From Massilia aquatica (GTDB taxonomy: Bacteria; Pseudomonadota; Gammaproteobacteria; Burkholderiales; Burkholderiaceae_D): a stretch of 64,000 nucleotides of DNA. Under the pieces are notes generated by a model. It worked only from the letters and a program-made list of their open reading frames with translations. It was not told where the DNA came from and did not search any database. This document shows, piece by piece, positions 853-52,223 of the stretch. The stretch is from the NCBI RefSeq assembly GCF_011682045.1, contig NZ_VVIW01000010.1, positions 62,001 to 126,000 on the forward strand, read 5' to 3'. The position numbers and the translations under genes are program-made. Every line of letters starts with the position of its first letter. Position 1 is the first letter of the stretch.

Positions 853-3800
853 TCAGAACTGCTTGCGCAGCTTGAACGAGACGCTTTGCGCACGCAAGCC
901 GCGATGGGCTTCGGCGTCGTAGCGCGCCGTCAGTTCGGTGTTGCCGTCGCGCAGCAGCGTCACGCCGGCGCCGGCGCGCGCGAACAGCGGCTTGGCATCG
1001 ACCCCGTAGGTGGTGAAGGCCGGTCCGCCACCGGCAAACGCCGCCACCAGCGTGGTTTGCTCGGCAAGGAAATCATAGCCGAGCCCGAGGTTGCCGGAGA
1101 ACGTCAATTGCTTCGATGGCGAATGATTGAACTTGGCGTCGGCGTACAGGGTGAACTGTTTGGCGCGCTGGCTGTTTACCATCAGGTTCAGGGCGCCGGC
1201 GCCGGTTTCGGCGTAGGCCTTGTTCTTGACGGTGGTGTAGTCCAGGCGCACTGATGGCGTCAGGCTGGTTTGCTCGCTGAGTGCCACGACGCGCGCAATG
1301 CCGCTGCCGGCATGCAGGCTGATGCCGCGGTAGTCGCTGCCGGCCATGCGCGTCAGGCCGCCGAAACTGATGAGCCTGCGTCCCTCGGTCTTGTTGGTGC
1401 CGGCATCGAGCTGCCAGTTGATGTCGGTATCGGCATCGAGGCTGTGGCTGCCGTAGGTCATCAGTTGCAGCAGGTCGATATCGGCCGACTGCGGGCTTAC
1501 GCCGTTGCCGTCCAGATTGGTGCGGGCGTAGGTCAGCGCGACGCCGACCCGGTCGGCGCTGCCGACGCCGCCGTCCGCGCCGACGATCAGGCCACCGGTG
1601 TCGGCTTTATAGCCGGCCGTGCCATCGCGTTCGCTCTGGCGCGCCCAGGCCCCGAACGGCTTGGCCCATAAGTTGCGCTCGCTGTCGTAGCCGCCGCCGG
1701 CCGACAGGCCGCGCTTCGATTCGATGCGCGCTTGCACCACGCGGCCGGTCAGGTTCATGTTGTGGGCAACGGCGGAGGCCATGCCGCCGCCTGCCAGCGG
1801 CAGGGTCTGGCCGACGGCATCCGAGACTTCCTGCGCGGTCGACAGCTTGCCCAGCGCTGTGATGACCTGGCCCATGTCGCCGCCGGTACCGCTGGCGATC
1901 AGGCTGTCGAACACGCGCGCGGCGCCCCCGCCGGACGAGTTGCCGGTAGCGACGATGGCCGAGATGGCGGTATTGGCCGGCTGCGGCTGGATTGGCGGCA
2001 GCGTTGGCGTCGGCACCGGGGTCGGGACCGGCGTTGGCACTGGCACTGGAACCGGTACTGGCGTTGGCACTGGGACCGGCACCGGTGTCGGCACTGGAAC
2101 CGGCGTCGGCACTGGAACCGGAACCGGCGTCGGAACCGGCACTGGCACTGGCGTTGGCACTGGGACCGGCACCGGCGTCGGCGGCGGGACCGGGACCGGG
2201 ACCGGGACCGGCGTCGGCACTGGAACCGGCACCGGTGTCGGCACCGGCACCGGCGTCGGCACAGGAACAGGTGTGGGGACGGGTGTTGGTTCCGGCGTCG
2301 GCACCGGTGTCGGTGTCGGAACAGGTGTTGGTACCGGCACTGGTGTCGGTGTCGGGGTCGGGGTTGGCGTTGGCGTCGGCGTCGGCGTCGGCGTTGCCGA
2401 GGCGATTACCAGGTCGATGGCATTGCCGTTCTTGACGCCAGTCAGGTTGAACAGGAAGCTGTTGTCGGTAACGGGAATGATGGCCGCCGTTGTCAGCGTG
2501 TCGCCAGCCTTGATCACATTGGCAAGCACGGTGCCGTTGGCCAGCACCGGCGCGCCGCTGACATCGACATCGATGTTGCTGCTGGCGGACATGTCGACAT
2601 TGCCTGTGACGTTCAGTTTGCCGTAAGTGGTGGCATTGGTCAGGCCGGTGCGAAAGATGCCGCCGACGGGCTGGAGATAGTCGCCGGTCAAGGTCACGGT
2701 ATGGCCGGCGGCGACCGACAGGATTCCGCTGTTGCTCATGGTCGTCGCGCCGATGGCCAGCGCACTGCTTGAGCGCAGGGTGCTGCCGGCGCTGATATTC
2801 ATCTGGCTCAAGCCGGAAAAATTGCCACCGGCGGTCATCGCCGCGCTGTTGAGCGTACCGGTGCCGATATTGACCACGCTGCCGGCGCCGCCGCTGACGG
2901 TGCCGGTCACGCTGGCGCTGGTGCCCAGGATATTCAAGGTATTGATGCCGAGCGCGAGCGCGCCAGTCAGGCTGCCCCGGTTAGTGACGATAAACGCGCT
3001 GCCGCTGTTGGTGAAGTTGAGCGAATTGGTGCCGCTGATGGCGCCGGTGCCGCTGTTCAGGATACCGCCGTCGAGAACGCTCGTGCCGGTGATTGCGATG
3101 CCGGTGTTGGTGCCGCTGATCGTGCCATCGTTGGTGATGCCTCCATGCACTTGCGCGTTGGGCACGGTGATGCCGATGTCGGTGGCGGTGATGGTGGCGC
3201 CGGCCTGGTTGACGATGCCGCCGGACACGATATTGGCGCCGCTGCCGATCCGGATGCCGCGCGGGGCGTCCAGCGCACCGGCGTTGACGATGCCGGTGGC
3301 CACGCTGGCGCCGGTGCCGTTGACATTGATGGCGTGGTTCTTGCTGGTGATGACGCCGTTTGCGGTATTGCTGACCGACCCCGCCGTGGCGCCGTTGGAC
3401 AAGGTGATGCCATTGCCGTTACTACTGGTAATGACCGAGCTGTTGACGATCTGGCCAGTGACAGTGGAATTGTCGCTGATGAATATGCCGGCGCCGTCGA
3501 TGCTGTTTCTGCCGCTCGACAGGGTGGTGGTGATGGTGCCGGCGTTATTGACGTTGCCGGTGATCGTGCTGCCATTGTAGGCGGCGATGCCGCCTTCGGC
3601 CCCGTCCATCAGGCCACGGTTGATGATGTCGCCGCTGATCTGCGACGCGCTCAGGTTGATCGAGCGATCGCCGTGGGTCTCGGCGCCGCTATCGTTCAGG
3701 ATGCCGCCGCCGCTGATGGTGGCGCTGCTCAGGTCGATGGGGTGGCTGCCGGTCAGTTTGCCGGCATTGACGATGCCACTGGTGACCGTCGAAGCGGCGA

Positions 3801-4686
3801 CGCCGATGATCGCGGTGCGGCCGCCGCTCATGATGCCGGTCGCGGTATTCTCGATCATGCCGACGGTCGAGCCGCTTCCCACCACCACCATGCTCGAATT
3901 GGCGCCGGCGATCGTGCCGCTGTTGCTGATTTTGCCGCTCACGGTGCTTCCCGCCAGTGCCAGCGCCGGGTTGCCGCCCTGGGTGTCGATGCTGCCGCTG
4001 TTGAGGATGTCGCCGGTGAGCGTGACGCTCGCCAGGGCGATGCCGCGCGCGTTTTGCCCTGGCGTCTTGCCGATGTGCCCCTGGTTGATAATGCTGGCGC
4101 CGAGCTGGGAATTGCTGATGTCGAGTGCGGCAAAACCGGCGGCCGCGTTGATGTTGCCGCCGGCGGCGTTGGTGATGCCGCCCTGCACAGTACTGTTGAC
4201 GATGTGGATCGCGGTGCCGTTGGCGGCGCTGATCACGCCGGCCGGACCGTTGCTGATGGCACCGGTAACATTAGCGCCGTTCAGGCGTATGCCTTCCAGA
4301 GTCAGGCCGCCCAACACGACGGTGGACGCGATGGTGCCGGTATTGGTGATCCCGCCGCTGAGGGTGCCTTCGATGTTGAGCGCGACCGTGGCCGGGTTGA
4401 TGGTGCCGGCATTGGTGATCGAGACGGCGCTGACGCCGCTGCCGAGCTGGACCCCATTGTTGGGGGTGTTTGCCAACGGCACGGTAATCACCCCGGTGGC
4501 GCTTACCGCGAGGCTCTCGCCGGCGCCGATGGTGCAGGTGCTATCGATGGTCGTGTTGTCCACCGTAATGATGCCGCCGCTGGCGGCCGGGCAAGGATTG
4601 CCGATTGCCGCCGCGTTGGCCATCATCAGGCAGGCGCCGGCCACCAGCACCGCCATTTGTTTTTTTTGAAAGGTGTAATTCGGCAT
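853..4686 (-). CDS. Autotransporter (type Va) surface protein with proline-rich stalk
   Basis: 1277 residues. An N-terminal signal peptide (residues 1-28, ending ANAAA) is followed by a passenger of about 730 residues made of imperfect N-x-G-x-I repeats such as GGITNTGTI, which usually fold as a right-handed beta-helix. Residues about 765-905 are an almost pure Pro-Thr/Pro-Val repeat that should form a rigid rod. The last 320 or so residues look like an outer-membrane autotransporter barrel, with strands of alternating residues and a C-terminal Phe (KLRKQF). Expected role: surface-displayed adhesin or biofilm factor. No protease or esterase motif was seen in the passenger. The ATG at 4686 is preceded by a GC-rich leader, and an FNR-like palindrome lies at 4771-4784. 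Confidence 0.9.
1998..2394. repeat. Low-complexity hexanucleotide-type repeat encoding Pro-Thr/Pro-Val
   Basis: About 400 bp of imperfect repeats of GGCACTGGAACC / GGCGTC type units. Read on the minus strand they encode the (PT/PV)n stalk of the autotransporter. Synonymous interruptions and PVPVP versus PTPVP blocks point to repeated unit duplication. Such tracts are prone to length change by slippage. The long Gly-Thr-Gly open frames on the opposite strand are by-products. Confidence 0.9.
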
Positions 4687-4941: not shown

Positions 4942-6336
4942 TCAGATCCAGTATTCGGTCAGGCGCGCCGTCCATTCCTTGATGCGGTCGCTCCACGGCC
5001 GGTCGCGCCACTGTTCCAGGGTGATTTCCTTGGAATCGCGCATGTCTTCCGAAAACGCGCTTTCCATGTCGGCGCCGAAGCCGGCATCGAGCACCACCAC
5101 GTTGAGCTCGTAGTTGTGCAGGAAACTGCGGCGGTCGATATTGGCCGAGCCGACCGTCGACCAGGTGCCGTCGATCACCGCCGTCTTGGCATGCAGGATC
5201 GCCACCTGCAACTGGTGGATCTTGACCCCGTTCTTGAGCAGTTCGTCGTAGAAGGCGCGGCCGGCGTGGAACACCAGGCCGTGATCGGTCACGCCCGGCA
5301 GCACCAGGCGCACGTCCACGCCGCGCCTGGCGGCCGCGCTCAGGGCGTCGACAAACTGGCGGTCCGGCACGAAATACGCGGCCGTGATGTGCACCGACTT
5401 CTTCGATTCCTGGATCGCCAGCATGAGCGACTTGTAGATCTCGGACTCGCGCTCGGGATCGGTGGCGAGCACGCGCACGATCTTGTCGCCGACCGGGGCC
5501 AGCGCCGGAAAGTACTCGCGCTCGGGCAATTCGCCGGCATCCTGGTTGACCCAGGCGTCGATGAAGTGATATTGCAGGGTCGCCACCGCCGGGCCTTCGA
5601 TCTTGATGTGGGTGTCGCGCCAGCCGACTTTCTTGCTGTCGATCGTCGCGTCCGGCCGGCGCTTGGAGCGGAAGAAGGAACTGTTGGCGTAGGTGCTGCT
5701 GATGTTGATGCCGCCCGTAAACGCCACCTTGCCATCGACCACCATCAGCTTGCGGTGGTCGCGGTTGTTCAATTCCCACTTGCCGACCCGCGCCGCCGGA
5801 TTGACCGGGTTGAAGGCGACCATGGCAATGCCGGCCTGCTGCATGCGCTCGAAGAATTCCTTGGGCGTGCCGAAGGTGCCGACGCTGTCGTACAGCACGT
5901 TGACGGTGACGCCCTGTTTTTGCTTGTCGATCAGGACGTTGGCGAACTGCAGGCCGATTTCATCCTGGTCGAAAATGTAGGTTTCCAGGTTGATCGAGGT
6001 TTTGGCGTTGCTGGCGGCCGCCATCATTTCGCGCATGGTGGCCGGGCCGTCGAACAGCAGGGTGACTTTGTTGCCCGCCACCAGCGGCACGCCCGTGGCG
6101 GCTTCTTCCAGCACCGCCAGCGCCTTCATGTCGGGGGTGGCCTTGGCCCAGCGCCGCGCCAGCAGGTCGGCGGCCTTTTTCTTGTCCATCCGGCCCTTGC
6201 CGGTGGCCACCGTCGGGGTCTTCTGCGCCACCGGCGTGTCGCCCACCCCGTCCATCGAGGGCAGGGAAGCGCAGGAGGCCAGACCGACCGCCAGGGCCAG
6301 CACGGCCAGCCAGGCAGCGACACGTGATTTCGTCAT
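4942..6336 (-). CDS. Phospholipase D / cardiolipin-synthase-like lipoprotein
   Basis: 464 residues. A lipoprotein signal peptide ends at LASCAS, with Cys22 as the likely lipidated residue. Two HKD catalytic motifs are intact: HRKLMVVDGKVAFTGG and, near the C-terminus, HAKTAVIDGTWSTVGSAN. This fits the cardiolipin synthase / PLD-like family, which transfers phosphatidyl groups or hydrolyses phosphodiesters. The lipoprotein anchor places it at the envelope. Its start overlaps the stop of the upstream Gcr gene by four bases (ATGA), so the two are translationally coupled and probably share the motif-bearing promoter at 8464-8505. A 255-bp spacer separates it from the autotransporter. Confidence 0.88.
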   Translation of the reverse strand: MTKSRVAAWLAVLALAVGLASCASLPSMDGVGDTPVAQKTPTVATGKGRMDKKKAADLLARRWAKATPDMKALAVLEEAATGVPLVAGNKVTLLFDGPATMREMMAAASNAKTSINLETYIFDQDEIGLQFANVLIDKQKQGVTVNVLYDSVGTFGTPKEFFERMQQAGIAMVAFNPVNPAARVGKWELNNRDHRKLMVVDGKVAFTGGINISSTYANSSFFRSKRRPDATIDSKKVGWRDTHIKIEGPAVATLQYHFIDAWVNQDAGELPEREYFPALAPVGDKIVRVLATDPERESEIYKSLMLAIQESKKSVHITAAYFVPDRQFVDALSAAARRGVDVRLVLPGVTDHGLVFHAGRAFYDELLKNGVKIHQLQVAILHAKTAVIDGTWSTVGSANIDRRSFLHNYELNVVVLDAGFGADMESAFSEDMRDSKEITLEQWRDRPWSDRIKEWTARLTEYWI

Positions 6337-8429
6337 TTTGATCCCTTAAGTGGTACAGCGTCGGGCGACTCGGACGGCAAGTCCTTGGGTCCGATGAAAA
6401 AATCGATGGGGGCGGCCAGGAAACGCCGTCCGAGTGCTTTCAACAACAGGATACCGTGTTCAAAGTGAATCTTGCGCGCGCGAAGCGCAACCAACAGTGC
6501 CAAGCCGAAACTTACCACGAGATTGACCGTGCCGATCGATAAAAAACCGCCGATCGAGGTCAGCGCGACTTGCCAGCTCATCTGGTGGTCGAGCGCAACC
6601 AGCGCGGTGGCGAAGTTGGCCGACGAGAAGGTGACGTGGCGGATGTCGAGCGGCAGGCCGAACAGGAAGCCGAGGGTACCGATGGTGCCCAGCAGCACGC
6701 CGAAGTACAGATTGCCCATCAGGCTGCCGAGGTTGTTCTCGATGTACAGCGACAGGCGCAGCAAGCGCTCCGGCCCCAGCAAACGGCCCAGGCCGCGCAG
6801 CTGGTAGACGCGCTGCGCCATGCGCGTGTAAAGCGCCTTGTTGTCGAAATAACCAGAGATCAGGCCGGCCACGAACAGGCACACGCCTGCGATGGCGGCG
6901 TAGAACAGGGCCGGGCTGTGGATCGGATCGATGTCGTGCAGCAGGTGCGCGGCTTTCTCTTGTGTGACCAAGTGGCGCCCGGTGGCGTAGTGGTAGCCGG
7001 TGGCGATCAGCCAGGCGGTCGGAATCGCCGTGGCCAGGTTGCCGAGCACGGCGACGCACTGGGTGCGGAACACCTTGTTGATGAGCGCCGCCATGCTGTC
7101 GAGGTCGATGTTCCTGCCATCCTTGCTCGACAGGCCGGCGGCGATGCGCGAGGCGGTCATGGCCGGCTGCTTGGTGGCCACGGTGAAATGCAGCACGTGG
7201 ATCAGCATGAAGCCGAGCGAGTAGTTCAGGCTGAACAAAAAGGCTTCAACTAGTGGCGCGGCGCGCAGGGTGCCGAGCAGGATCTTGAACAGCGCCATGA
7301 AGCCGACGATGAAACCGGCCCCGGCCGAGGAATTGAACATGCTGCGCAGCTGGACGCGGCTGTCGGCAATGTAGTGTTCGCCGGTGCGGCTGGCGTTTTC
7401 GGTCACATTGCGCGCCAGCAAGTCGATATTGTCGGCAAACAAGTCGCGGACGGTGTATTTGTTGTTGTGCGCTTCGACCAGTTCCTGCGCCAGGGCAATG
7501 CCGCCGGCGCGGCGCAGGCTGGTCGGCGGGGCATAGTCGGGCGTGGCGTCGTTGGCCAGGGTGGCCAGGTCGACCCCGGGGGCGGACGGCAAGTGACCGC
7601 TCACATCGACCAGGAACAGCAGTTTGCGCAGGCGGTCGATGCTTTGGGTCAGCGCCACCAGCAGGTAAGTGAGGGCCACGCTGGTGCCGTGGCTGAGCGC
7701 GTTCTTGCGGATCTTGGCGACCACGCTGTCGCACTGGTCGAGCATCACGAGCAGGTGGCGTGCGTCGTCGACGCTGGCCACGTCGCCGGCCAGCAGGCGC
7801 GCATAGCCGTCGAGGTAGTTGTTGACCTCGATGTTTTGCATCAGGAACGGCGAATCGAAGTTTTCGATGTCCGCATGGCTGCTGATCAGGCGCGGCTCGA
7901 AACCGAGCGCGCAGACGCGGCAGGAAATCGTGCGGATCGCTTCGAGCATGCCGAGCACGGTGGTGCGCTCGGCGTTGGCCGGGCTTGTGAACGGCGCGGG
8001 AGGGGCGTTCGAGACCACGTCGAACAGCTCCAGCCAGTCGGCGGCGGGCACGGTGCGGATCCAGCGGTAGTCGGTCTGGACGTACAGGACCTGGTCGATG
8101 GCGTCGCTCAGGTACACATCGCCCAGTGCGGGCGGCAGGAAGCGGTAGGAAATGCGGCGTTTCAGTTCGGTAAAGAAACCGTCGTTGGAGAGCACCCCGA
8201 TGTCGGTGTACAGGCTGGCGTGGCGGCGGCTGTCGAGCAGGCGCGTGAGGTAGCTGCGCAGGGCCGAGGCTTGCTCGGGATTGCCCTTGAGTAGCTGGCA
8301 CAGGGTGCGCACGCGCTCGGTGCTGGTGGCGATCTCGGCGCGGCGGCGCGGACGCAGTTTTTCCACCAGGTCGACCAGCACATCAATGCGGTCGCTATGG
8401 GGATCGATTCGTTCTAGGGTGGAAAGCAT
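6333..8429 (-). CDS. Gcr-family 'site-specific recombinase' membrane protein
   Basis: 698 residues that I recognise as the COG4389/SpecificRecomb family, long annotated as site-specific recombinase after the gonococcal gcr gene. The sequence shows no tyrosine or serine recombinase motif. Instead it has an N-terminal helical domain of about 380 residues and then several hydrophobic segments between residues 385 and 660 (for example GFIVGFMALFKILLG and SLGFMLIHVLHF). A membrane role is therefore more likely. The start has a weak ribosome site; the leader would be only about 28 nt if the predicted promoter at 8464-8505 is used. It overlaps the PLD gene by 4 bp. Confidence 0.8.
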   Translation of the reverse strand: MLSTLERIDPHSDRIDVLVDLVEKLRPRRRAEIATSTERVRTLCQLLKGNPEQASALRSYLTRLLDSRRHASLYTDIGVLSNDGFFTELKRRISYRFLPPALGDVYLSDAIDQVLYVQTDYRWIRTVPAADWLELFDVVSNAPPAPFTSPANAERTTVLGMLEAIRTISCRVCALGFEPRLISSHADIENFDSPFLMQNIEVNNYLDGYARLLAGDVASVDDARHLLVMLDQCDSVVAKIRKNALSHGTSVALTYLLVALTQSIDRLRKLLFLVDVSGHLPSAPGVDLATLANDATPDYAPPTSLRRAGGIALAQELVEAHNNKYTVRDLFADNIDLLARNVTENASRTGEHYIADSRVQLRSMFNSSAGAGFIVGFMALFKILLGTLRAAPLVEAFLFSLNYSLGFMLIHVLHFTVATKQPAMTASRIAAGLSSKDGRNIDLDSMAALINKVFRTQCVAVLGNLATAIPTAWLIATGYHYATGRHLVTQEKAAHLLHDIDPIHSPALFYAAIAGVCLFVAGLISGYFDNKALYTRMAQRVYQLRGLGRLLGPERLLRLSLYIENNLGSLMGNLYFGVLLGTIGTLGFLFGLPLDIRHVTFSSANFATALVALDHQMSWQVALTSIGGFLSIGTVNLVVSFGLALLVALRARKIHFEHGILLLKALGRRFLAAPIDFFIGPKDLPSESPDAVPLKGSK

Positions 8430-8463: not shown

Positions 8464-8505
8464 AGTGTACGTGGTGTTGCGCGGAAACTTTGTTCGCTAG
8501 CGAAC
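8464..8505 (-). promoter_or_regulatory. GTDCG-N4-CGHAC site and -10 for the gcr-PLD operon
   Basis: Perfect palindrome GTTCGCTAGCGAAC at 8492-8505, then 22 bp, then a -10-like TACACT at 8464-8469 (minus strand). This is the class II activator geometry shared with the other sites in this window. Confidence 0.7.
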
Positions 8506-8520
8506 AGACTGGCTACGCGG

Positions 8521-9243
8521 CTAGTTGGGACACAGCGTGTATTTCTTGCTACCCATGGGATCGGTGGCGGATGGATAGGTGACGCAATAGGTTCCCAGCG
8601 CGGTTTTGATCTTGTACATGCGCCCGCCTCTATCGCTATTGCCGGTTGTAATTTCCTCGATCTCGGCTTTTTCAAACAGGGTGGGGTTGCGCCGGGCCGA
8701 CTGGATGCCGGCGATCAGGCGTTTTTGCGGCGAATCGTCGGGCACGGCGAACTTGTTGAGCGATGCCTTGCGCAACTCCTTGTCGATCTTGGCCAAGTCG
8801 GCCAGGGCGCGCTTGCGGATGGCGTCGGCGCCGCCGGCGGGTGCCGCAGGGGCCGGTTCGGTGGCGAACGGGTCGGGCGGCAGCAGCGCGATGGCCGGTG
8901 CCTCGCTCTCGGGCGTGGCGGGCACGGAAATCGCAGGGGCGGGCGGCGCCGGTGGCGTGGCGGGCGCATCGCGTCGCGTGCGCGCGGCCCGCACCGGTTC
9001 GCTGCTGGCGCTGGCCGCCGGTACGGGACGCGCTTGCGGCGCCGGCTCGCCCGCTTTGGGGGCAACGGTGTCGATCCACTGGATGCGCGGGCCACTGTCC
9101 TCGTCGCGCAGCGGGGCTTGTTCGCGCGTGTGGTGCCACGCCAGCAACAGGGCGGCGTGCAGGCCGATCACGATGCCGATGGTGAGCCAGCGGCCTGGCG
9201 GCCGGGAAAACGCGATGTCGGTGGAAGGGTGCAGCGTCGGCAA
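8521..9243 (-). CDS. TonB-like periplasm-spanning protein of unknown role
   Basis: 240 residues. One N-terminal transmembrane segment (WLTIGIVIGLHAALLLAW, about residues 19-36) is followed by an Ala/Pro-rich stretch of about 110 residues and a compact C-terminal region with two cysteines (TYCVTYP...YTLCPN) that could form a disulfide. The layout is that of TonB-like energy transducers or anchor proteins, but the C-terminus does not show the classical TonB YP motif. The stop lies 15 bp from the palindrome that serves the next gene. The upstream 184-bp spacer contains two GGTTAAAT copies and is AT-rich, so a divergent promoter with the aminotransferase gene is likely. Confidence 0.6.
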   Translation of the reverse strand: MPTLHPSTDIAFSRPPGRWLTIGIVIGLHAALLLAWHHTREQAPLRDEDSGPRIQWIDTVAPKAGEPAPQARPVPAASASSEPVRAARTRRDAPATPPAPPAPAISVPATPESEAPAIALLPPDPFATEPAPAAPAGGADAIRKRALADLAKIDKELRKASLNKFAVPDDSPQKRLIAGIQSARRNPTLFEKAEIEEITTGNSDRGGRMYKIKTALGTYCVTYPSATDPMGSKKYTLCPN

Positions 9244-19280: not shown

Positions 19281-19427
19281 CTAGATACCTCGGCCGCTGA
19301 TAAGGCGAACCAGAATCATGATAACAGCAACAACCAGCAGGATGTGGATGAAGCCGCCAATTGTATAGGAAGTGACCAAGCCAAGCAGCCACAGGATCAG
19401 GAGTACGACGGCGATTGTATAGAGCAT
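19281..19427 (-). CDS. Lmo0937/DUF5670-family small membrane protein
   Basis: 48 residues: MLYTIAVVLLILWLLGLVTS then a GGFIHILLVVAVIMILVRLI segment and RISG-type end (LISGRGI). This is the standard two-helix layout of the Lmo0937 family, found near stress genes. GAGGA lies upstream of the ATG. Its promoter carries the GTDCG palindrome. The molecular role is unknown. Confidence 0.85.
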   Translation of the reverse strand: MLYTIAVVLLILWLLGLVTSYTIGGFIHILLVVAVIMILVRLISGRGI

Positions 19428-19475: not shown

Positions 19476-19517
19476 AGTATGCAGAACTCTTGCATGCCGC
19501 TCCGTACGCTGGCGTAC
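19476..19517 (-). promoter_or_regulatory. GTDCG-N4-CGHAC site and -10 for the Lmo0937-type gene
   Basis: Palindrome GTACGCTGGCGTAC at 19504-19517, 22-bp spacer, -10-like CATACT at 19476-19481 on the minus strand. Confidence 0.72.
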
Positions 19518-19518
19518 A

Positions 19519-19749
19519 TTAAGAATAAGTTTTTTGTTCGTTTTGCAATGCAGGCAACCAGCCCAATACGCCTGCCAGGCCAACCAAACCGATCAGGCAG
19601 GCCACCAGGCCGCCGGCAATCAGAAACACCACGTCCTGGGCCTGCATTGTGGCGCTGCTGCCCGCCGCGACAGGTCCCGCGGCGCTGAATCCAAACAGCG
19701 TTACGATAATGCCCCAAGCTAAAATGCCGATCCAAACCATGCGGTTCAT
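19519..19749 (-). CDS. Small two-helix membrane protein
   Basis: 76 residues with two hydrophobic helices (VWIGILAWGIIVTLFGFSAAG and VVFLIAGGLVACLIGLVGLAGVL). No family is recognised. AAGGAAT precedes the ATG. It has its own palindrome-bearing promoter, so it belongs to the same response as its neighbours. Confidence 0.7.
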   Translation of the reverse strand: MNRMVWIGILAWGIIVTLFGFSAAGPVAAGSSATMQAQDVVFLIAGGLVACLIGLVGLAGVLGWLPALQNEQKTYS

Positions 19750-19805: not shown

Positions 19806-19847
19806 ATTTTCGCGCTTGCTCATCAGCAAATCGGTTCGTTGGCGCAC
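19806..19847 (-). promoter_or_regulatory. GTDCG-N4-CGHAC site and -10 for the 76-residue membrane gene
   Basis: Palindrome GTTCGTTGGCGCAC at 19834-19847, 22-bp spacer, -10-like GAAAAT at 19806-19811 on the minus strand. Confidence 0.7.
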
Positions 19848-19920: not shown

Positions 19921-20778
19921 TCAGGCGGCCGAACGCAAGGTCCCGTTGACGACCTTGACGCGGTCCCCAGTGCGCCAGCCAGCCGCGCTCTGCTGATGGA
20001 AGGTGCGCGCTCCGCCATCGTCCAGGCGCACCCGGATTTCGTAGCTGCGCGTCGCTTTCAGATTGCCTTCGACCTGGTTGCCGACTACCGCGCCGCCGAC
20101 CGCACCGGCGACGGTGGCGAGCTTGCGGCCGTTGCCGCCGCCTACCTGGTTGCCGAGCAAGCCGCCCAGCACCGCGCCGCCCGCCGCGCCCAGGCCGCTG
20201 CCTTGCGCGCGCTGGGTCACTTCACGCACCGATTCGATATTGCCGCAATGGTTGCACCAGCGCTCCGGCGCCGGCTCGGAAGCGGCGTGGCGCGGCGCCG
20301 GCGCCGGCTTGCGCTCGGCTGGTTTGCGTGTCGTTGCCGGTCCGCCGTTGTGCAGCGCGGCGCGGTCGAGCTCCTGCTGCGTCGGGATGCGCCTGGCTTC
20401 CTCTGCGGCCTCGCGCTTTTCTTCGCGGTCGCGCGCGGCACGCAGGTCGTCCTCGCGCTGGTTATCGGCGCGCTGGGCGGCGCGGTAGCGGGCGGCATTG
20501 CGTTCGGCGTCGGTGTCCTGCGCGTCAAGTGCGGCCAGGGTGCGCGGCGCGAGGTTCGATGCGCCAGCCGAGCTGCCCTCGCTTTGCAGTGTCGAGGCCA
20601 GCACCGCGCGGTCGATTTCACTGAGCTCGGCGGTGGCGGGCGTGCCGCCGATCGATGAGGGAATCCAGCCGAGGATGGCGGCCGTGCCGGCCCCGCAAAA
20701 CACGATCACCGCGACGGCGGCGGCGATCAGCAGCGGATGCTGGGCGCTGCGGGGCGCAGGGGAGGAGGGCGTCGTCAT
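19921..20778 (-). CDS. Glycine-zipper (2TM) inner-membrane-anchored protein
   Basis: 285 residues. One N-terminal membrane helix (LIAAAVAVIVFCGAGTAAILG), a long charged, probably coiled region rich in Arg/Glu/Ala (residues 85-135), a CNHCGNIESV motif, then a Rick_17kDa/glycine-zipper segment (GLGAAGGAVLGGLLGNQVGG, GAVGGAVVGNQVEG) and a C-terminal beta domain that also occurs in the SlyB-like proteins (SYEIRVRLDDGGARTF, GDRVKVVNG). It resembles the shorter gene at 30883. Role in envelope integrity is inferred. Confidence 0.8.
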   Translation of the reverse strand: MTTPSSPAPRSAQHPLLIAAAVAVIVFCGAGTAAILGWIPSSIGGTPATAELSEIDRAVLASTLQSEGSSAGASNLAPRTLAALDAQDTDAERNAARYRAAQRADNQREDDLRAARDREEKREAAEEARRIPTQQELDRAALHNGGPATTRKPAERKPAPAPRHAASEPAPERWCNHCGNIESVREVTQRAQGSGLGAAGGAVLGGLLGNQVGGGNGRKLATVAGAVGGAVVGNQVEGNLKATRSYEIRVRLDDGGARTFHQQSAAGWRTGDRVKVVNGTLRSAA

Positions 20779-20832: not shown

Positions 20833-20874
20833 ATTCTCCCGAGGATGGGGCGGCCCTTCCGTGCGTCACCGTAC
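20833..20874 (-). promoter_or_regulatory. GTDCG-N4-CGHAC site shared by the glycine-zipper gene and the Crp/Fnr gene
   Basis: Palindrome GTGCGTCACCGTAC at 20861-20874. On the minus strand a 22-bp spacer leads to GAGAAT at 20833-20838. On the plus strand TACGCT lies at the same distance (20897-20902), upstream of the regulator gene, so the site could also mediate autoregulation. Confidence 0.7.
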
Positions 20875-21015
20875 ATACTTTGCCTATTATTGACGTTACG
20901 CTGATTGAAATTGTTTGTAAATGTATCTGTCATACCAACCTGGCCTTACCTATCTAATGATCGCTATCCGTTTTGTCTCATGGCCGACCGCGCGCCCTGC
21001 CCACCGGAGGGAGCG

Positions 21016-21747
21016 ATGAATCACGTTTCCGCCGTTGAGTTCGACCACCCGAACGGCAACCAGCTGCTCGCCGCCTTGCCGCACAACGACCTTGCGCGGC
21101 TGTCTCCCTTGCTCGAACCGGTACAGGTGGAAGTGGGCGAGGTGCTGTACGAGCCGGCCGAGCCGGTCCGCCATATCTATTTTCCGCACGACAGCCTGAT
21201 TTCGCTGCTGGGCGTGGCCGAAGGGCGCATGACGCTCGAGGTCGGCCTGGTCGGGCGCGAAGGCATGCTGGGCGCCACCGTCGCGCTCGGGCACGATACC
21301 GCGCAGACGCGCGCCATCGTCCAGCGCGCCGGGTGCGCCAGCCGCATGGACAGCGCCAAGTTCCGCACCGAATTCGCGCGCAATCCTGCCTTGCAGAGGG
21401 TGCTGTACCGCTATACCGACACCTTGCTGGCGCAGGCGATCCAGATCGCCGTGTGCAGCCGCTTCCACGTGCTCGAAGCGCGCCTGGCGCGCTCGCTGCT
21501 GATTACGCGCGACCGTCTCAAGTCCGACAAATTTCATCTGACCCACGAATTCCTTGCGCATGCGCTCGGCGTGCGCCGGGTCGGCGTGACCAAGGCCGCC
21601 AGCGCCTTGCAGCAGCAGGGGCTGATCATCTACAGCCGCGGCAATATCGAGATCCTCGACGTGCAGGGACTGGCGGCGGCCTCCTGTAAATGCTACGAGA
21701 TCGTCAAGGAAGCGGGCGCGAGCGCGCTGTCGACCGCCTTCGTCTGA
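21016..21747 (+). CDS. Crp/Fnr-family transcriptional regulator
   Basis: 243 residues. An N-terminal cyclic-nucleotide-binding-like beta-roll (GEVLYEPAEPVRHIYFPHDS, GLVGREGMLGATVALG) leads through a long dimer helix to a winged helix (FHLTHEFLAHALGVRRVGVT). There is no N-terminal Cys cluster, so it is not an oxygen-sensing FNR. The recognition helix has RRVGVTK where CRP has SRETVGR: the first Arg is kept but the key Glu is Val, predicting a different target. The ATG at 21016 is chosen for GGAGG seven bases upstream. It sits in the centre of the genes that carry the GTDCG palindrome, with one copy in its own upstream region. The ligand is unknown. Confidence 0.9.
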   Translation: MNHVSAVEFDHPNGNQLLAALPHNDLARLSPLLEPVQVEVGEVLYEPAEPVRHIYFPHDSLISLLGVAEGRMTLEVGLVGREGMLGATVALGHDTAQTRAIVQRAGCASRMDSAKFRTEFARNPALQRVLYRYTDTLLAQAIQIAVCSRFHVLEARLARSLLITRDRLKSDKFHLTHEFLAHALGVRRVGVTKAASALQQQGLIIYSRGNIEILDVQGLAAASCKCYEIVKEAGASALSTAFV

Positions 21748-22755: not shown

Positions 22756-23067
22756 TTACTTCATGCGAATGTCGTTTTTCACCGACTTCACACCTTTGAC
22801 ATTGCGGGCGACTTTGCCGGCGGTAGCGATGCTGTCTTGCGCAGCGACGAAGCCGCTCAGCTGAACAACGCCTTTGAAGGTTTCAACGTTGATTTCCGAA
22901 ACTTTCAGGGTCGGCTCATTGACGATGGCCGCTTTGACGCTGGTGGTGATCACGCTGTCGTCAACGTATTCGCCCACGCTTTCTTTTTTGTCGGTCGAGG
23001 CGCAGCCAACAACGGTGGTCAGCATCAGGGCGGCGATGAGGGTCGATACGATTTTCAGGTTTTTCAT
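22756..23067 (-). CDS. BON-domain lipoprotein
   Basis: 103 residues: lipoprotein signal ending VVGCAS, then one BON domain (VDDSVITTSVKAAIVNEPTL, VETFKGVVQLSGFVAAQDSI, GVKSVKNDI). BON domains bind phospholipid surfaces and OsmY-like members stabilise the envelope. It is closely similar to the BON gene at 32174, pointing to a recent paralogue. It is first in an operon with the OsmB-like gene and is served by the palindrome at 23168. Confidence 0.92.
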   Translation of the reverse strand: MKNLKIVSTLIAALMLTTVVGCASTDKKESVGEYVDDSVITTSVKAAIVNEPTLKVSEINVETFKGVVQLSGFVAAQDSIATAGKVARNVKGVKSVKNDIRMK

Positions 23068-23139: not shown

Positions 23140-23181
23140 AGATTAGGGCTTGCCGAGCTCGTGGTCTGTTCGGCAACGCAC
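23140..23181 (-). promoter_or_regulatory. GTDCG-N4-CGHAC site and -10 for the BON-OsmB operon
   Basis: Palindrome GTTCGGCAACGCAC at 23168-23181, 22-bp spacer, -10-like TAATCT at 23140-23145 on the minus strand. Confidence 0.7.
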
Positions 23182-23210: not shown

Positions 23211-25295
23211 TCAGCGGCGCGGGCGGACGTTTTGGGCCGAGGGTGCGCTCTTGCCCGGCGGCGGCGCCACCGGCTTTTCGCGCGCTTCGGCCAGCAAGCG
23301 AGCGCAGCCGCTTTCCTGGCCCGGACCGGTATTGACCAGGGGCAGCAGGGCGGCCGGGGCTGCGACCAGGCCCAGCGCAACCGCGCCACCCGCCTTCAGG
23401 GCCAGCACGCCCTTGTCGACGCTCACCTCCGGCTTGGAGAAGCTGCCGCGCAGGTGCAGGGGCGAGCGCAGCGAAAAGATGCGCAAGCCCTTGGTCTTGG
23501 GATTCAAGGTCAGGTCCATCTGTTCGTTGGCCAGGTTGATGGTGCCGTCGCCCGTGATGGCCGCCTCTTCGGTATCGACCACGAAGGTGCGCGTCTGCAT
23601 CAGCCCGTTGGTGACCTGGAAATCGCTGGCCATGCAATTGAGCTTGACCTGCTTGTCGCCGAACAGTTTGGTCAGCACGATATTGCCGATGTTCAGGCCA
23701 GCCTGTTCGAGCAGCATCTTGCTCACCGTGCCTTCGTCGATCAGCGCCTTGACTTCGCCATTCGAGGCCGCCAGCAAGGACGCCACCGAATTGCCGGTGC
23801 TTGACAACTGCGCGTCGCCATTGATCTGGCCGACCGTGGCCTTCATGCCTTCAACCGAGGGAAACAGTTCCTTGATCTTGATGTGGCGCGCGCTGACCTT
23901 GGCGGTGGCCTTGATGGCTTGCTTGCCATTGCCGCTGCCATCGAGCTTGATGGTGGAGGTGACGCTGCCGCCGGCCATCTGGAAATTCATCGGCGCCAGG
24001 GTCAGCACCCCATCCTTGAGGATCAGGTGGGTCGACAGTTTGCTGATCGGCAGCTGCTTTTCGCGCACGATGCGCTCGGCCGCGTAGTGCACGTCGGCGT
24101 CGATCGCGGTCCAGCGTTCGGTGCGGAACGATTCGACCGGCAGCACCTTGCCGCTCGGCTGCACCGCCTCGACCCCGCGCGCCTCCTTGCTGGCGTTCGA
24201 ATCGGCGCCCACCAGCGGCCCCAGATCGGCGAACTGCAGCAGTTTCGACGACACCTTGCCACTCAGTTTGCCGCGTGGCTTGCCGGTCTGGTATTCCATA
24301 TGCCCGGCGATATCGCTCGAACCGACCTTGCCGGTAAATTTGTCGTAGACCCAGCGGCTGCCGGCCTCGCCGAGCTCGCCGGTCAGGCGGCCCTCGGTGC
24401 GAAAGGCCGGCGTTTCCGGCAGCAGCAGCCCGGTCAGGGTGTACAGGCGCGCCATGCTGGCGCCCGAGAGCTTCAGGCGCACATCGACCGCCGCCAGCTT
24501 GGTCGGCTTGGTGATCGTGCCTTCGATTTCGATGTGGGTTTTTCCGACGCGCAGGTCGGCCTGGAGCGGATAGGGGGTGCTCTGCTCCTTGAGCGAGAGC
24601 ACTGCGCCGGCCTTGCCGCCGCCGGTCACCGGGCCGTTGTTATAGGTGCCGCGCAGCTTCCAGCTGATTCCGTAGGCGGGGTCGGCGTTGACGGTGTCGA
24701 CGTCGGCGCTCAGGTCGATGTCCTCGATCGCATCGTTGAACTTGACCACGCCCTTGGTAAACACCACGCGTTCGAGGTCGAGCTTCCAGCGTGCCGGCTT
24801 GTCTTCATTGCGGAAGGTCCAGTTGTTCTTGCCATCCTTGTCGCGCCGCAGGTCGACGGCCGGGGCGTCGAAGCGCAGCACCGGAATGGCGATGGTCTTG
24901 TGCAGCAGCGAGAAAGGGTTGAGCGAAAACGAGAACTGTTTGACGGAAGCCATGTCACCCGTGCCCATCCCGCCCGGCTGGCCCACGTGCACATCGTTGG
25001 CGACCAGGTGCGGCCAGGGCACCAGATCGCGCCAGGTGCGGTCGCGCTCGGCCATGACGGCGGACGGCTTTTCCCAGCTCAGGTCGAGGTTGCCCTTGAT
25101 GTTGAACGGACGGTCGATCGCTTCGCTGGCCTTGGCGTTGAGCCACGGACGGGCCTTGTTCCAGTCGTAGGTGAGCAGGATGGCGAGCGCGATCAGTGGA
25201 ATGGCGACCAGCACGGCCACGATGGCGAGAATAATTTTGGTGCGGCGCGCGATCGGTGTGCGACGGCCGGACGGGACCGGGGCGGCTTGGCTCAT
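23211..25295 (-). CDS. AsmA-family envelope protein
   Basis: 694 residues. One N-terminal membrane helix (IILAIVAVLVAIPLIALAILL), then the long beta-rich AsmA body: NIKGNLDLSWEKPSAVMAE near residue 60, ANDVHVGQPG..., and the C-terminal AsmA-2 part (SNGEVKALIDEGTVSKMLLE, TKGLRIFSLRSPLHLRGSFS). AsmA proteins form lipid-transfer bridges between inner and outer membranes. It ends in a Pro/Arg-rich tail. The predicted leader is about 20 nt from the palindrome promoter. It is divergent from the DUF4398 operon with one palindrome for each side. Confidence 0.9.
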   Translation of the reverse strand: MSQAAPVPSGRRTPIARRTKIILAIVAVLVAIPLIALAILLTYDWNKARPWLNAKASEAIDRPFNIKGNLDLSWEKPSAVMAERDRTWRDLVPWPHLVANDVHVGQPGGMGTGDMASVKQFSFSLNPFSLLHKTIAIPVLRFDAPAVDLRRDKDGKNNWTFRNEDKPARWKLDLERVVFTKGVVKFNDAIEDIDLSADVDTVNADPAYGISWKLRGTYNNGPVTGGGKAGAVLSLKEQSTPYPLQADLRVGKTHIEIEGTITKPTKLAAVDVRLKLSGASMARLYTLTGLLLPETPAFRTEGRLTGELGEAGSRWVYDKFTGKVGSSDIAGHMEYQTGKPRGKLSGKVSSKLLQFADLGPLVGADSNASKEARGVEAVQPSGKVLPVESFRTERWTAIDADVHYAAERIVREKQLPISKLSTHLILKDGVLTLAPMNFQMAGGSVTSTIKLDGSGNGKQAIKATAKVSARHIKIKELFPSVEGMKATVGQINGDAQLSSTGNSVASLLAASNGEVKALIDEGTVSKMLLEQAGLNIGNIVLTKLFGDKQVKLNCMASDFQVTNGLMQTRTFVVDTEEAAITGDGTINLANEQMDLTLNPKTKGLRIFSLRSPLHLRGSFSKPEVSVDKGVLALKAGGAVALGLVAAPAALLPLVNTGPGQESGCARLLAEAREKPVAPPPGKSAPSAQNVRPRR

Positions 25296-25322: not shown

Positions 25323-25365
25323 ACTTTAAGCGATATGGGTGGCACTTTTGTGTACGTTAGCGCAC
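25323..25365 (-). promoter_or_regulatory. GTDCG-N4-CGHAC site and -10 for asmA
   Basis: Palindrome GTACGTTAGCGCAC at 25352-25365; here the spacer is 23 bp to TAAAGT at 25323-25328 (minus strand). Confidence 0.65.
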
Positions 25366-25401: not shown

Positions 25402-25443
25402 GTGCGGCAGCGAACCGAACTTGCCAATAAATCAGCTTATAAC
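25402..25443 (+). promoter_or_regulatory. GTDCG-N4-CGHAC site and -10 for the DUF4398-OmpA operon
   Basis: Palindrome GTGCGGCAGCGAAC at 25402-25415, 22-bp spacer, strong -10 TATAAC at 25438-25443. The implied start site is near 25450 and the palindrome centre lies at -41.5. Confidence 0.75.
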
Positions 25444-25480: not shown

Positions 25481-25873
25481 ATGAATGCACAAATCAAGAA
25501 TCAAGTCAGTAAAGTTCTTTGCGCCGCACTGGTTATGACACTGGTCGCTTGCGCCAGTTCGCAAAAAGCACCGGCAACGGCTGATGTTGCCGTGTCGAAG
25601 AATGCCGTCGAAAACGCTGTGAGCGCCGGCGCCGCCGATCTGGCCCCGGAAGAAATCAACGCCGCCCGCACCAAGATGATGCAGGCCAACCAGGCCCTGG
25701 CCGCTAAAGATTACAAACTGGCGCGCGAACTGGCGACCCAGGCGCAGGCCGACGCCAAGCTGGCCCAGAGCAAGGCCAATTCGGCCAAGGCGACCACCGC
25801 CGCCAATGCACTCCAGGATGACCTGCGCGTGCTGCGCGAAGAAGTCGACCGCGCCAACAAGCCGCAACAATAA
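25481..25873 (+). CDS. DUF4398 lipoprotein
   Basis: 130 residues. Lipoprotein signal ending TLVACASSQK, then the helical DUF4398 domain (AAPADLAPEEINAARTKMMQ-type repeat, KDYKLARELATQAQADAKLA). The same domain is fused to OmpA in the next gene. It probably sits on the inner face of the outer membrane. The start at 25481 is chosen because the upstream frame lacks a signal. It is first gene of a likely six-gene operon ending at 28762. Confidence 0.88.
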   Translation: MNAQIKNQVSKVLCAALVMTLVACASSQKAPATADVAVSKNAVENAVSAGAADLAPEEINAARTKMMQANQALAAKDYKLARELATQAQADAKLAQSKANSAKATTAANALQDDLRVLREEVDRANKPQQ

Positions 25874-30882: not shown

Positions 30883-31344
30883 TTAGTAACGGTAGACGCG
30901 GCCGTCGACCACGCGTACGCGGTTGCCGACGCGCAGGTCGTACACGCTGTCCTGCACAACCGTGCGGGTTTCGCCGTTTTGCAGGCGAACGTTAATCTGG
31001 TACATCTCCTGGCCATTACCGGCATTGCGGTTGGCTTCGACCTTGTTGCCGACCACGGCGCCGCCGACGGCACCGGCGACAGTCGCTGCGGTACGGCCGC
31101 TGCCGCTGCCGACCTGATTACCGACCAGTGCGCCGACAATACCGCCGACAACCGCACCGGCGCCGTTGGTCTGGCCGTCATTGCGGGTGACCTGGATCGA
31201 TTCGATGGTGCCGTAGCCCGCCGACGAGGAGGCTGGATTGTCGTAGCTGCCATTGTTGACAGGCTGGGACGAGGTGCTGGCACAGCCGCTGAGCATGGCA
31301 GTGGTGGCGATGACGATTGCTGCGATAGTCTGGTTCGATTTCAT
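30883..31344 (-). CDS. Glycine-zipper 2TM lipoprotein (SlyB/Rick_17kDa-like)
   Basis: 153 residues. Lipoprotein signal ending TAMLSGCAST, glycine-zipper region (GAVVGGIVGALVGNQVGSGS, GAVGGAVVGNKVEAN) and a C-terminal domain (YQINVRLQNGETRTVVQDSV, VGNRVRVVDGRVYRY) closely like the end of the protein at 19921-20778. SlyB-type proteins support outer-membrane integrity. Start at 31344 chosen for signal and GGAGAAC upstream. Confidence 0.88.
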   Translation of the reverse strand: MKSNQTIAAIVIATTAMLSGCASTSSQPVNNGSYDNPASSSAGYGTIESIQVTRNDGQTNGAGAVVGGIVGALVGNQVGSGSGRTAATVAGAVGGAVVGNKVEANRNAGNGQEMYQINVRLQNGETRTVVQDSVYDLRVGNRVRVVDGRVYRY

Positions 31345-31371: not shown

Positions 31372-31413
31372 AGCATAATCAGCAAGCACCATGGGGTCTG
31401 TGCGCTGCCGCAC
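31372..31413 (-). promoter_or_regulatory. GTDCG-N4-CGHAC site and -10 for the 30883 glycine-zipper gene
   Basis: Palindrome GTGCGCTGCCGCAC at 31400-31413, 22-bp spacer, -10 TATGCT at 31372-31377 on the minus strand. Confidence 0.72.
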
Positions 31414-31473: not shown

Positions 31474-31515
31474 GTTCGCCAGCGTACAGATGTTGGGCGG
31501 TACTTCCCGTAAAAC
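31474..31515 (+). promoter_or_regulatory. GTDCG-N4-CGHAC site and -10 for the 31553 gene
   Basis: Palindrome GTTCGCCAGCGTAC at 31474-31487, 22-bp spacer, -10 TAAAAC at 31510-31515 on the plus strand. Confidence 0.72.
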
Positions 31516-31552: not shown

Positions 31553-32101
31553 ATGAAACGAGCAGTCACCCCCGCCTTGATCGGCGCCTTCCTGATGTCG
31601 GCCGCCTTGTCGGCCAGTGCGGCGACCCCGGAAGCGAAGGCGGCCTACAAGCAGGCCACAGCGGCGGCGACCGCCACCTACAAGGCGGCGCGTGCGCAAT
31701 GCGACGTGATTACCGGCAACCCCAAAGAGGTGTGCGTGGAAGAAGCCAAGGCAGCGCGCGTGCGCACCGTGGAAGAAGCGAGCGCCATCTACAAGAACAC
31801 GCTCAAAGCCTATACCCAGTCGCGCCAGACGATCGCCTCGGCCAACTTCGACCTCGACAAGGCCAAGTGCCGTGCGCTGACCGGCAACGACAAGGATGTC
31901 TGCATGCAGCAGGCAAAATCGACCCTGATCGCGGCCCAGGCCGACGCCAGGGCCGACAAGAAAGCGATCGAAGCGCGCACCGATGCGCGCGACGACAAAC
32001 GGACGGCCGAGTACAAAGTCGCGCTTGAAAAGTGCGATGCGTTTGCCGGTGCGGTCAAGGACACGTGTGTCTCGGCCGCGAAATCGCAGTATGGTAAATA
32101 A
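31553..32101 (+). CDS. Exported protein with three Cys-x10-Cys repeats
   Basis: 182 residues. Signal peptide (LIGAFLMSAALSASAA). Three similar helical units each carry a Cys pair ten residues apart: CDVITGNPKEVC, CRALTGNDKDVC and CDAFAGAVKDTC, each followed by a charged Ala/Lys-rich helix. The pairs could form helical-hairpin disulfides or bind a metal in the periplasm. I do not recognise the family beyond this repeat. GGAG lies upstream of the ATG at 31553. Confidence 0.75.
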   Translation: MKRAVTPALIGAFLMSAALSASAATPEAKAAYKQATAAATATYKAARAQCDVITGNPKEVCVEEAKAARVRTVEEASAIYKNTLKAYTQSRQTIASANFDLDKAKCRALTGNDKDVCMQQAKSTLIAAQADARADKKAIEARTDARDDKRTAEYKVALEKCDAFAGAVKDTCVSAAKSQYGK

Positions 32102-38694: not shown

Positions 38695-39726
38695 TTATTG
38701 AACGCGTCGTTCGATGGTGATTTGCTCGACTTCAACGCGGCGGTTCGGTTCCAGGCAGGTGATCAGCGCGGCGCGGTTTTTCTCGGTGCAGGTGACTACC
38801 GGATTGGCCTCGCCCTTGCCGTAGGCTTTCAGGCGCGCGCCGTCGATGCCCTTGGCCACCAGATAGTCGCGCACCGCATTGGCGCGCCGCTCCGACAGCT
38901 TGAGGTTGTATTGCTCCGAACCGAGCCGGTCGGCGTAGCCGGTGATGTCGACGTCGGTGATGCTCGGGTCGGCCGCCAGCGCGGCGGCGATCTCGTCCAG
39001 GCGCGTCTGGGTGACGTTCAGGGTTGCGCTGTTGAAGGCGAACAGCTCGGTGGCGGTGAGCGTGATTTTTTCGAAGCGGGCCGGCGGCGGCGGCGGTGCC
39101 ACCGGTTCCGGCGGCGGCGTGAGTGCCGGCGGCGGGGTCGGCGCTGGCGGTGGCGGCGGCGGCGGAGGAGGAACCGGCTTGTTGAAAGCGTAGTTGACGC
39201 CGATCGTCAGGTATTTGTTGTTGCTGCGGTCGAAACCGAAGGCGTCGTCGCCGCGCAGGCGCCCGCGCACCGTGCGCAGGTCGGCCTGCATCGACCACTG
39301 GTCGGTCAGGCCCAGCTGGAATCCGAGGCCGGCGGTCGCGTAGGGCGAGGTCTTGCTGACCCGGCGCAGCGGATTGTCGACCCGGTCGCGCTCGGCGCCG
39401 ACGCCAATCAGCAGGAAGGGACGGAAATTCTGGCGCGACAGCATCAGCAGCGCGTCCGCGCCCACCAGGGTCTGGCGATAGTTGGCCAGGCCTTCCTTGC
39501 TGCGCGCATGGGTGACGCCCATCTGCACGTCCCACATCTCGGACAGCGGCCTGCCGATCTTGAGGCCGCCTCCGTAGTCGCGTTCGTCAACGCCGAAATC
39601 CTTGTCGGGCCGGAACGCGTTGGCGCTGGGCTGGATATACCACGAGGGATTGATATCTTGCGCAAAGGCCAGTGACGCGCTGCACGATAGTGCCGCAGCC
39701 AGGGCCGTCTTTCTCATTTTGCTCAC
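38695..39726 (-). CDS. OmpA-OmpF-porin-family outer membrane protein
   Basis: 343 residues. Signal peptide (TALAAALSCSASLAFAQ), an eight-strand barrel part (residues about 20-175, with GGGLKIGRPLSEMWDVQMGV), a Pro-rich linker with a nine-Pro run, and a C-terminal OmpA domain (ELFAFNSATLNVTQTRLDEI, DITGYADRLGSEQYNLKLSE). The start is taken as GTG at 39726 because AGGAG lies 5 bp upstream; an ATG at 39717 is the alternative. Role: structural anchor between outer membrane and peptidoglycan. Confidence 0.92.
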   Translation of the reverse strand: MSKMRKTALAAALSCSASLAFAQDINPSWYIQPSANAFRPDKDFGVDERDYGGGLKIGRPLSEMWDVQMGVTHARSKEGLANYRQTLVGADALLMLSRQNFRPFLLIGVGAERDRVDNPLRRVSKTSPYATAGLGFQLGLTDQWSMQADLRTVRGRLRGDDAFGFDRSNNKYLTIGVNYAFNKPVPPPPPPPPPAPTPPPALTPPPEPVAPPPPPARFEKITLTATELFAFNSATLNVTQTRLDEIAAALAADPSITDVDITGYADRLGSEQYNLKLSERRANAVRDYLVAKGIDGARLKAYGKGEANPVVTCTEKNRAALITCLEPNRRVEVEQITIERRVQ

Positions 39727-39795: not shown

Positions 39796-39837
39796 AGATT
39801 AAGTGGGGGAGTTCAATGCAACCGTTCGATAGCGCAC
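39796..39837 (-). promoter_or_regulatory. GTDCG-N4-CGHAC site and -10 for the OmpA-YihY unit
   Basis: Palindrome GTTCGATAGCGCAC at 39824-39837, 22-bp spacer, -10-like TAATCT at 39796-39801 on the minus strand. Confidence 0.72.
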
Positions 39838-39955: not shown

Positions 39956-40273
39956 TTAGTTCGTTTTTTCCGGTACGACGATCACGGTGTCGCCGCCGGT
40001 CTTGCCTTGGTCGCCTTTGGCGCCGTCTACGCCAGGGGCACCTGGGGTGCCGGTTGCGCCAGCGGCGCCTGGGGTGCCGGTGGCGCCCGAGTTGCCGTCG
40101 GTACCAGCAGCGCCGGTCGCGCCGGTTGCGCCAGGAGCGCCAGCCGGGCCAGGTACGGCTACTGGAACTTCAACGGTTGGGGTAACAACCGTTGCAGGTG
40201 GGTTAACAGTGGTTTTTTCGCATGCGGTCAGGCCGGCGATTGCCAGCAGTGCTGCCAGGATAGTCGTTTTCAT
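39956..40273 (-). CDS. Collagen-like lipoprotein
   Basis: 105 residues. Lipoprotein signal (ILAALLAIAGLTACEK), a Pro/Val/Thr linker, then about 17 Gly-X-Y triplets (from GPAGAPGATG to GAKGDQGKTG, residues about 42-94) and a short C-terminal tail (DTVIVVPEKTN). Bacterial collagen-like proteins can form triple helices on the surface. Its small size suggests a short rod anchored in the outer membrane. Confidence 0.9.
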   Translation of the reverse strand: MKTTILAALLAIAGLTACEKTTVNPPATVVTPTVEVPVAVPGPAGAPGATGATGAAGTDGNSGATGTPGAAGATGTPGAPGVDGAKGDQGKTGGDTVIVVPEKTN

Positions 40274-40365: not shown

Positions 40366-40407
40366 AGAATACGGTCTTGTTTAGTTGGAATCTGTACGCC
40401 AACGCAC
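40366..40407 (-). promoter_or_regulatory. GTDCG-N4-CGHAC site and -10 for the collagen-like gene
   Basis: Palindrome GTACGCCAACGCAC at 40394-40407, 22-bp spacer, -10 TATTCT at 40366-40371 on the minus strand. Confidence 0.75.
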
Positions 40408-40474: not shown

Positions 40475-40541
40475 GTTCGATGGCGCACAGACCATCGCGG
40501 TCCGCACAGGCAATCTTGCACTCAGTTGTGCGGAACCGAAT
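40475..40541 (+). promoter_or_regulatory. GTDCG-N4-CGHAC site plus a degenerate copy upstream of the winged-helix gene
   Basis: Perfect palindrome GTTCGATGGCGCAC at 40475-40488 with CAATCT 22 bp downstream (40511-40516), and a one-mismatch copy GTGCGGAACCGAAT at 40528-40541. A half-site GTGCGAA lies just upstream at 40466-40472. Confidence 0.6.
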
Positions 40542-52181: not shown

Positions 52182-52223
52182 GTGCGTTTGCGTACAGAAT
52201 AAATGGCGGCTTGGGTGCATGCT
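52182..52223 (+). promoter_or_regulatory. GTDCG-N4-CGHAC site and -10 for the 52253 gene
   Basis: Palindrome GTGCGTTTGCGTAC at 52182-52195, 22-bp spacer, -10-like CATGCT at 52218-52223 on the plus strand; the start codon follows after a predicted leader of about 22 nt with GGAGGAG. Confidence 0.7.

Follow-up and report, generated by a model that had tools for sequence, protein, structure and literature searches.

A Crp/Fnr regulator of Massilia aquatica and its proteobacterial relatives are predicted to act as class II activators at a shared 14-base palindrome

The gene at 21016-21747 (+) in a 64-kb stretch of the Massilia aquatica genome, the whole of which we refer to as the window, encodes a Crp/Fnr regulator that quite probably functions as a class II activator, binding a 14-base palindrome and turning on envelope/stress-type genes as well as its own gene. 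We assign it to a subfamily for which we coin the name GVRR/C3H herein, after the recognition helix and four conserved ligand-type residues. The regulator has all four of these Cys/His residues, Cys147, His151, Cys224 and Cys226, and its own promoter contains a predicted TGTNCG-N4-CGNACA operator at -41.5. Both the gene and the palindrome copy in its upstream region (20861-20874), as described in the original prediction, were confirmed.

The open reading frame, which has GGAGG directly before its ATG, specifies a protein of 243 amino acids with the recognition helix GVRRVGVTKAASALQ. A C-terminal Crp-type helix-turn-helix is present (HTH_Crp_2, PF13545; Pfam E 3.7e-14), and the cNMP-binding domain (PF00027) scored under the Pfam cut-off (21.8 vs 27.5 bits). 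The AlphaFold model of the protein (mean pLDDT 88.7, pTM 0.84) has a Crp fold and matched CRP and GlxR structures in the PDB, the best match being M. tuberculosis CRP. The Foldseek alignment to 4a2u_F (E 3.0e-14, TM 0.76) included the N-terminal cNMP-like domain and the overall fold. An identical protein is present in M. atriviolacea and M. mucilaginosa records.

We counted 14 copies of the palindrome, GTDCGN4CGHAC, in the 64-kb window; 100 dinucleotide shuffles averaged 1.20 copies and never yielded as many as 14. Across the whole genome (7.47 Mb) we found 173 sites versus 133 for a reversed control, and 66 versus 29 when a central YR step was required; 13 of these 66 YR-type sites lie in the window, around the GVRRV gene. 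One of the window matches, 8856-8869, falls within a predicted gene (8521-9243) and probably arose by chance. That the motif as a whole is a product of base composition or of a repeat family is an explanation to which we give almost no weight: the G+C-rich palindromes CGNCG and GCNGC do outnumber it in total across the 80 ortholog loci considered below, but the shuffles, the reversed control, the exact spacing to the -10 box and the conservation in the 80 loci contradict this reading. A further three copies of the motif, all identical (GTGCGACAACGTAC) and about 80 bp apart, lie beyond the window at G000:C7:142440-142612; they lack -10 boxes at 22 nt and look like a tandem repeat. Scans of the window with Rfam, at gathering thresholds, and for tRNAs gave no matches. 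The window also contains a predicted 1277-residue protein with a signal-like start at 853-4686.

To define the promoter geometry, 13 sites were oriented to the nearest downstream gene, with the site at 20861 taken both ways and the intragenic site at 8856 excluded, giving 14 gene-facing ends. The -10-like pattern xAxxxT begins 22 nt after the palindrome in 11 of the 14 ends and 23 nt after it in one more; the remaining two ends have TATAAC and TAAAAC, both at 22 nt. On the minus strand, sites precede the genes for a SpecificRecomb (PF10136) protein (site 8492-8505, gene 6333-8381), a lmo0937-family membrane protein (19504-19517, gene 19281-19427), a 76-residue protein with no Pfam match (19834-19847, gene 19519-19749), a BON-domain protein (23168-23181, gene 22756-23067), an AsmA-family protein (25352-25365, gene 23211-25295; the end with its -10 box at 23 nt), a glycine-zipper protein (31400-31413, gene 30883-31344), an OmpA/beta-barrel protein (39824-39837, gene 38695-39726) and a 105-residue protein with collagen-like repeats, for which the matches were below cut-off (40394-40407, gene 39956-40273). 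Plus-strand sites are found before genes for a DUF4398 protein (25402-25415, gene 25481-25873; the TATAAC end), a 182-residue protein with no family match (31474-31487, gene 31553-32101; the TAAAAC end), a 203-residue protein with no NCBIfam match (40475-40488, gene 40612-41223) and a 185-residue protein with no Pfam match (52182-52195, gene 52253-52810), the last being the sole site that lacks a central YR step.

The preferred spacing does not depend on the choice of orientation. With orientation left unchosen, xAxxxT was found at offset 22 in 11 of 28 ends of the window sites, compared with five ends at the runner-up offset. Offset 22 also came out on top in each of three separate sets of loci, with 459 of 1206 ends (166 at the runner-up), 53 of 152 (17 at the runner-up) and 28 of 80 (11 at the runner-up). 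A -10 box 22 nt after the palindrome places the palindrome centre at -41.5, a class II position. In the columns just downstream of the palindrome, A, G and A are found at 9, 11 and 13 of the 14 ends, respectively, a pattern that would suit an extended palindrome as well as the GA of a weak -35 box. Judged by sequence, the window sites look like class II activator sites. As the palindrome overlaps the -35 region, the regulator might instead bind as a repressor that blocks this element, which we consider unlikely: class II activators are characterized by a fixed -41.5 position and weak -35 elements, and the spacing observed here is nearly constant.

The site next to the regulator gene, GTGCGTCACCGTAC at 20861-20874, precedes the regulator by about 148 nt and the divergently oriented gene 19921-20778 by about 89 nt, and is predicted to be a bidirectional operator. 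It is followed at 22 nt by a -10 box in each direction, TACGCT toward the regulator (20897-20902, plus strand) and GAGAAT toward gene 19921-20778 (20833-20838, minus strand). This arrangement is conserved: when the window was taken together with 80 ortholog loci, 79 of 81 loci had the site beside the regulator flanked on each side by a -10 box at 21-23 nt, one of the two exceptions being cut at a contig end. Of the remaining 520 sites in these loci, 36 were flanked in this way. A single palindrome therefore appears to serve two divergent promoters.

In the mode of action that we infer for activation, each subunit of a dimer would read one TGTNCG half of TNTGTNCG-NYRN-CGNACANA. Positioned at -41.5, the dimer would overlap the poor -35 region and recruit RNA polymerase to a -10 box that starts 22 nt on, and about a dozen envelope/stress-type transcripts of the island would be switched on. 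The shared palindrome would drive both the regulator gene, as positive autoregulation, and the divergent glycine-zipper gene 19921-20778.

If this regulator reads the palindrome, the two should be found together in other genomes. Relatives of the regulator were collected from named genomes and the best 80 of 134 were used as ortholog loci; the motif was present in all 80. When a script assigned to each oriented site the first gene that follows it, the most frequent were regulators of this family (102 loci) and glycine-zipper proteins (84 loci), followed by the lmo0937-family peptide (68), the PF10136 protein (58), the 76-residue protein (54), the AsmA protein (49) and BON proteins (24). We then ranked all 256 palindromes of the form abNcd-N4 by how many distinct regulators have a copy in the 400 bp upstream. 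GTNCG ranked first upstream of close GVRRV regulators (81 of the 81 with enough upstream sequence; next 27), of distant GVRRV regulators (18 of 32; next 5) and of GVRRE regulators (31 of 57; next 8), leaving 14 distant GVRRV and 26 GVRRE proteins with no site within 400 bp. Within the same distance it was found upstream of none of six proteins without RR and none of four with RR followed by A, S or T; one of the six, L150, has a bidirectional site approximately 430 nt upstream. A second palindrome, TGNGC-N4-GCNCA, is present upstream of eight of the 57 GVRRE regulators, five times with a -10 box, and is perhaps a variant operator.

Within the family, genome-wide motif counts exceeded the control in all 26 genomes that have an ortholog (E < 1e-90), in 5 of the 13 whose best homolog is middling (1e-60 to 1e-78) and in 20 of 77 with no match at 1e-60 (Mann-Whitney p 4e-11 for ortholog versus no-match genomes, uncorrected for relatedness); these genomes and loci are related, so that the counts are not independent. 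Across the order, 100 genomes had a match at 1e-50 and 56 of them showed an excess (50 of 94 with six close ones set aside), compared with 86 of the 299 genomes without such a match. Outside the Massilia group, genome-wide counting is therefore a blunt test, and sites near the regulators are the sharper one. In the phylum, homologs at 1e-40 were found in 31 of 299 sampled genomes, often in multiple copies, and sites were present in 12 of 14 GVRRE loci and in none of six others, a contrast that is confounded with taxonomy. Relatives of the regulator in other proteobacteria appear, from their promoter sequences, to use the same palindrome. The earlier proposal of this regulator as the best candidate reader is supported by its ortholog loci, by the family genomes with an ortholog and by the promoters of the close orthologs.

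Since the regulator gene is among the targets, motif enrichment at its promoter is no proof that its product is the reader, and a transcription factor of another family could read the palindrome with the Crp/Fnr gene as just one target. Two motif-rich genomes yielded no homolog: G015, from the same order, has 81 motif copies versus 15 for the control yet no homolog at 1e-40, and G437 has a motif excess and no homolog at the thresholds used. We nevertheless regard a reader from another family as very improbable, since the association tracks the Crp/Fnr subfamily across families and classes, and the size and spacing of the palindrome suit Crp/Fnr dimers. A further genome, G463, with 34 sites versus 8 and no homolog of either query, looked like a counter-example; of the 15 sites examined, two had a -10 match on either side at 22-23 nt. 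Its sites are spread over many contigs, although the assembly is in 480 pieces.

The association with Crp/Fnr proteins extends beyond the GVRRVGVTK helix of this regulator. The expectation that its unusual helix would account for a new target sequence was not supported, as relatives with a GVRRE helix have this palindrome too, at an identical distance from the -10 box. Motif clusters without the regulator, which the original prediction had named as evidence against it, were also found. Three genomes picked for neighbouring sites, G465, G482 and G408, contain local groups of four sites in 19 kb, four in 19 kb and five in 36 kb, respectively, and no GVRRV member at 1e-20; their genome-wide motif and control counts were 19 and 21, 39 and 32, and 24 and 32, with only G482 above its control. 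At the same threshold each has a single homolog, of the GVRRE type and from the same subfamily, and the link between regulator and motif therefore moves up to the subfamily rather than falling. A tree of 99 proteins placed 35 GVRRV rows, together with four other rows, in a branch of 39 with support 100/95, and the other branch holds 53 of 54 GVRRE rows. As the site is found with both types, the operator is common to both branches and, on the available sequences, belongs to the subfamily and not to the GVRRV helix alone. Positions 181 and 185 covary: of 98 homologs, 42 have E/E and 23 have V/K. V at position 181 was rejected as a specificity determinant, since the motif is common to GVRRE proteins. 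In an alignment to CRP, the second R of the RR helix is taken to stand at the place of R180. According to a passage in Rodionov et al. (PMC1274295), R180 of CRP correlates with G3 of the site and E181 is tied to A6. The G that matches R180 is part of the palindrome motif, and the E181-A6 rule would be broken by GVRRE proteins should these read C at that base.

Four paralogs were found in the regulator's own genome, all of the GVRRE type and sharing the RR helix: C1:48559, C88:21782, C6:163904 and C4:66138. The promoters of the first two carry the palindrome, and those of the last two do not. Paralog G000:C1:48559, which lies 34 kb from the regulator, has a bidirectional palindrome of its own at C1:48425-48438, 13.6 kb left of the window; the other side of this palindrome points toward a gene judged by eye to encode a membrane protein. 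One of the GVRRE paralogs, C1:48559 in particular, might be the main reader or a co-reader of the sites, a possibility that we take seriously though we think it the less probable one. In addition to having its own site, this paralog has relatives in the motif groups of G465, G482 and G408, and relatives of 55-87% identity in four of six tested motif-rich genomes without a GVRRV match at 1e-60. Logos of 20 bp from loci with and without a GVRRV member are near-identical, with the same spacing. Against this, 22 of the 26 ortholog genomes were tested and 15 have a close relative (E < 1e-120) of C1:48559; the other seven all retain the motif excess, with other paralogs of 48-57% identity to C1:48559 present, and this paralog is therefore unnecessary for the motif. 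The clustering of 13 of the 66 YR-type sites around the GVRRV gene also favors the regulator at 21016-21747 as reader. Where both proteins occur, they likely share sites.

As to the signal, the original prediction held that there is no Fe-S cysteine cluster and that the ligand is open. The first part stands in that the N-terminal [4Fe-4S] cysteines of FNR are absent, the first Cys of the regulator being residue 107, but the near-invariant Cys147, His151, Cys224 and Cys226 had been missed. All four are present in 97 of 99 aligned homologs, including the regulator. The two exceptions, the own-genome paralogs C6:163904 and C4:66138, lack Cys147, His151 and Cys224; in both, this loss coincides with the missing promoter palindrome. 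In the model the four residues are located at the end of the dimerisation helix, in the hinge and at the start of an extra C-terminal helix, and they may form one site. A metal or redox change at these residues is our leading guess for the trigger, which is probably not cAMP.

Comparison with known systems places the subfamily near several of them. E. coli CRP, which uses R180 and acts at class II promoters from -41.5, resembles the regulator in fold, helix-turn-helix, an arginine at the R180 place with G at the matching half-site base, and the -41.5 position. The half-site differs (TGTNCG versus TGTGA for CRP), as do the weakly matched cNMP domain and the C-terminal Cys extension, and with V presumably at the E181 place and K at the R185 place the regulator has R-V-K instead of the R180-E181-R185 set of CRP. 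FNR sites have 5-N4-5 spacing in a class II architecture, and the sites described here share both; the regulator differs in having cysteines at the hinge and C-terminus and none at the N-terminus, and with GTNCG as the top palindrome upstream of the regulators its operator would not be the TTGAT-N4-ATCAA of FNR. NtcA has the consensus GTAN8TAC with a -10 box about 22 nt on and is alike in its 14-bp palindrome beginning with GT and ending with AC and in the -10 distance, but it matched the regulator at 19 bits only and the palindrome here has CG at positions 4-5. For NnrR of alphaproteobacteria, a passage of PMC1274295 gives the motif ctTTGcgnnnncgCAAag, which shares the cg-N4-cg core and has TTG as outer bases in place of the GTN found here. 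RedB of Rhodobacter capsulatus is, according to PMC9603854, likewise a Crp/Fnr member, from a widespread subgroup that had gone unstudied before that report; its motif is reported there as AT-rich and non-palindromic, and it is by this described motif, not by sequence, that we set it apart. A text search of an open-access library, which motifs drawn in figures escape, found no report of this operator and no functional study of the GVRR/C3H subfamily.

Taken more broadly, and tentatively, a large proteobacterial Crp/Fnr subfamily may sense a metal, redox state or iron-sulfur cluster through a Cys3His site that runs from the hinge helix to a C-terminal Cys-x-Cys and does not involve the N-terminus; its interlocked, self-activating paralogs would act through one palindrome on an envelope-stress regulon. 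The predicted operator, the exact promoter geometry, the list of targets and the four candidate ligand residues together make the function of the subfamily testable at once.
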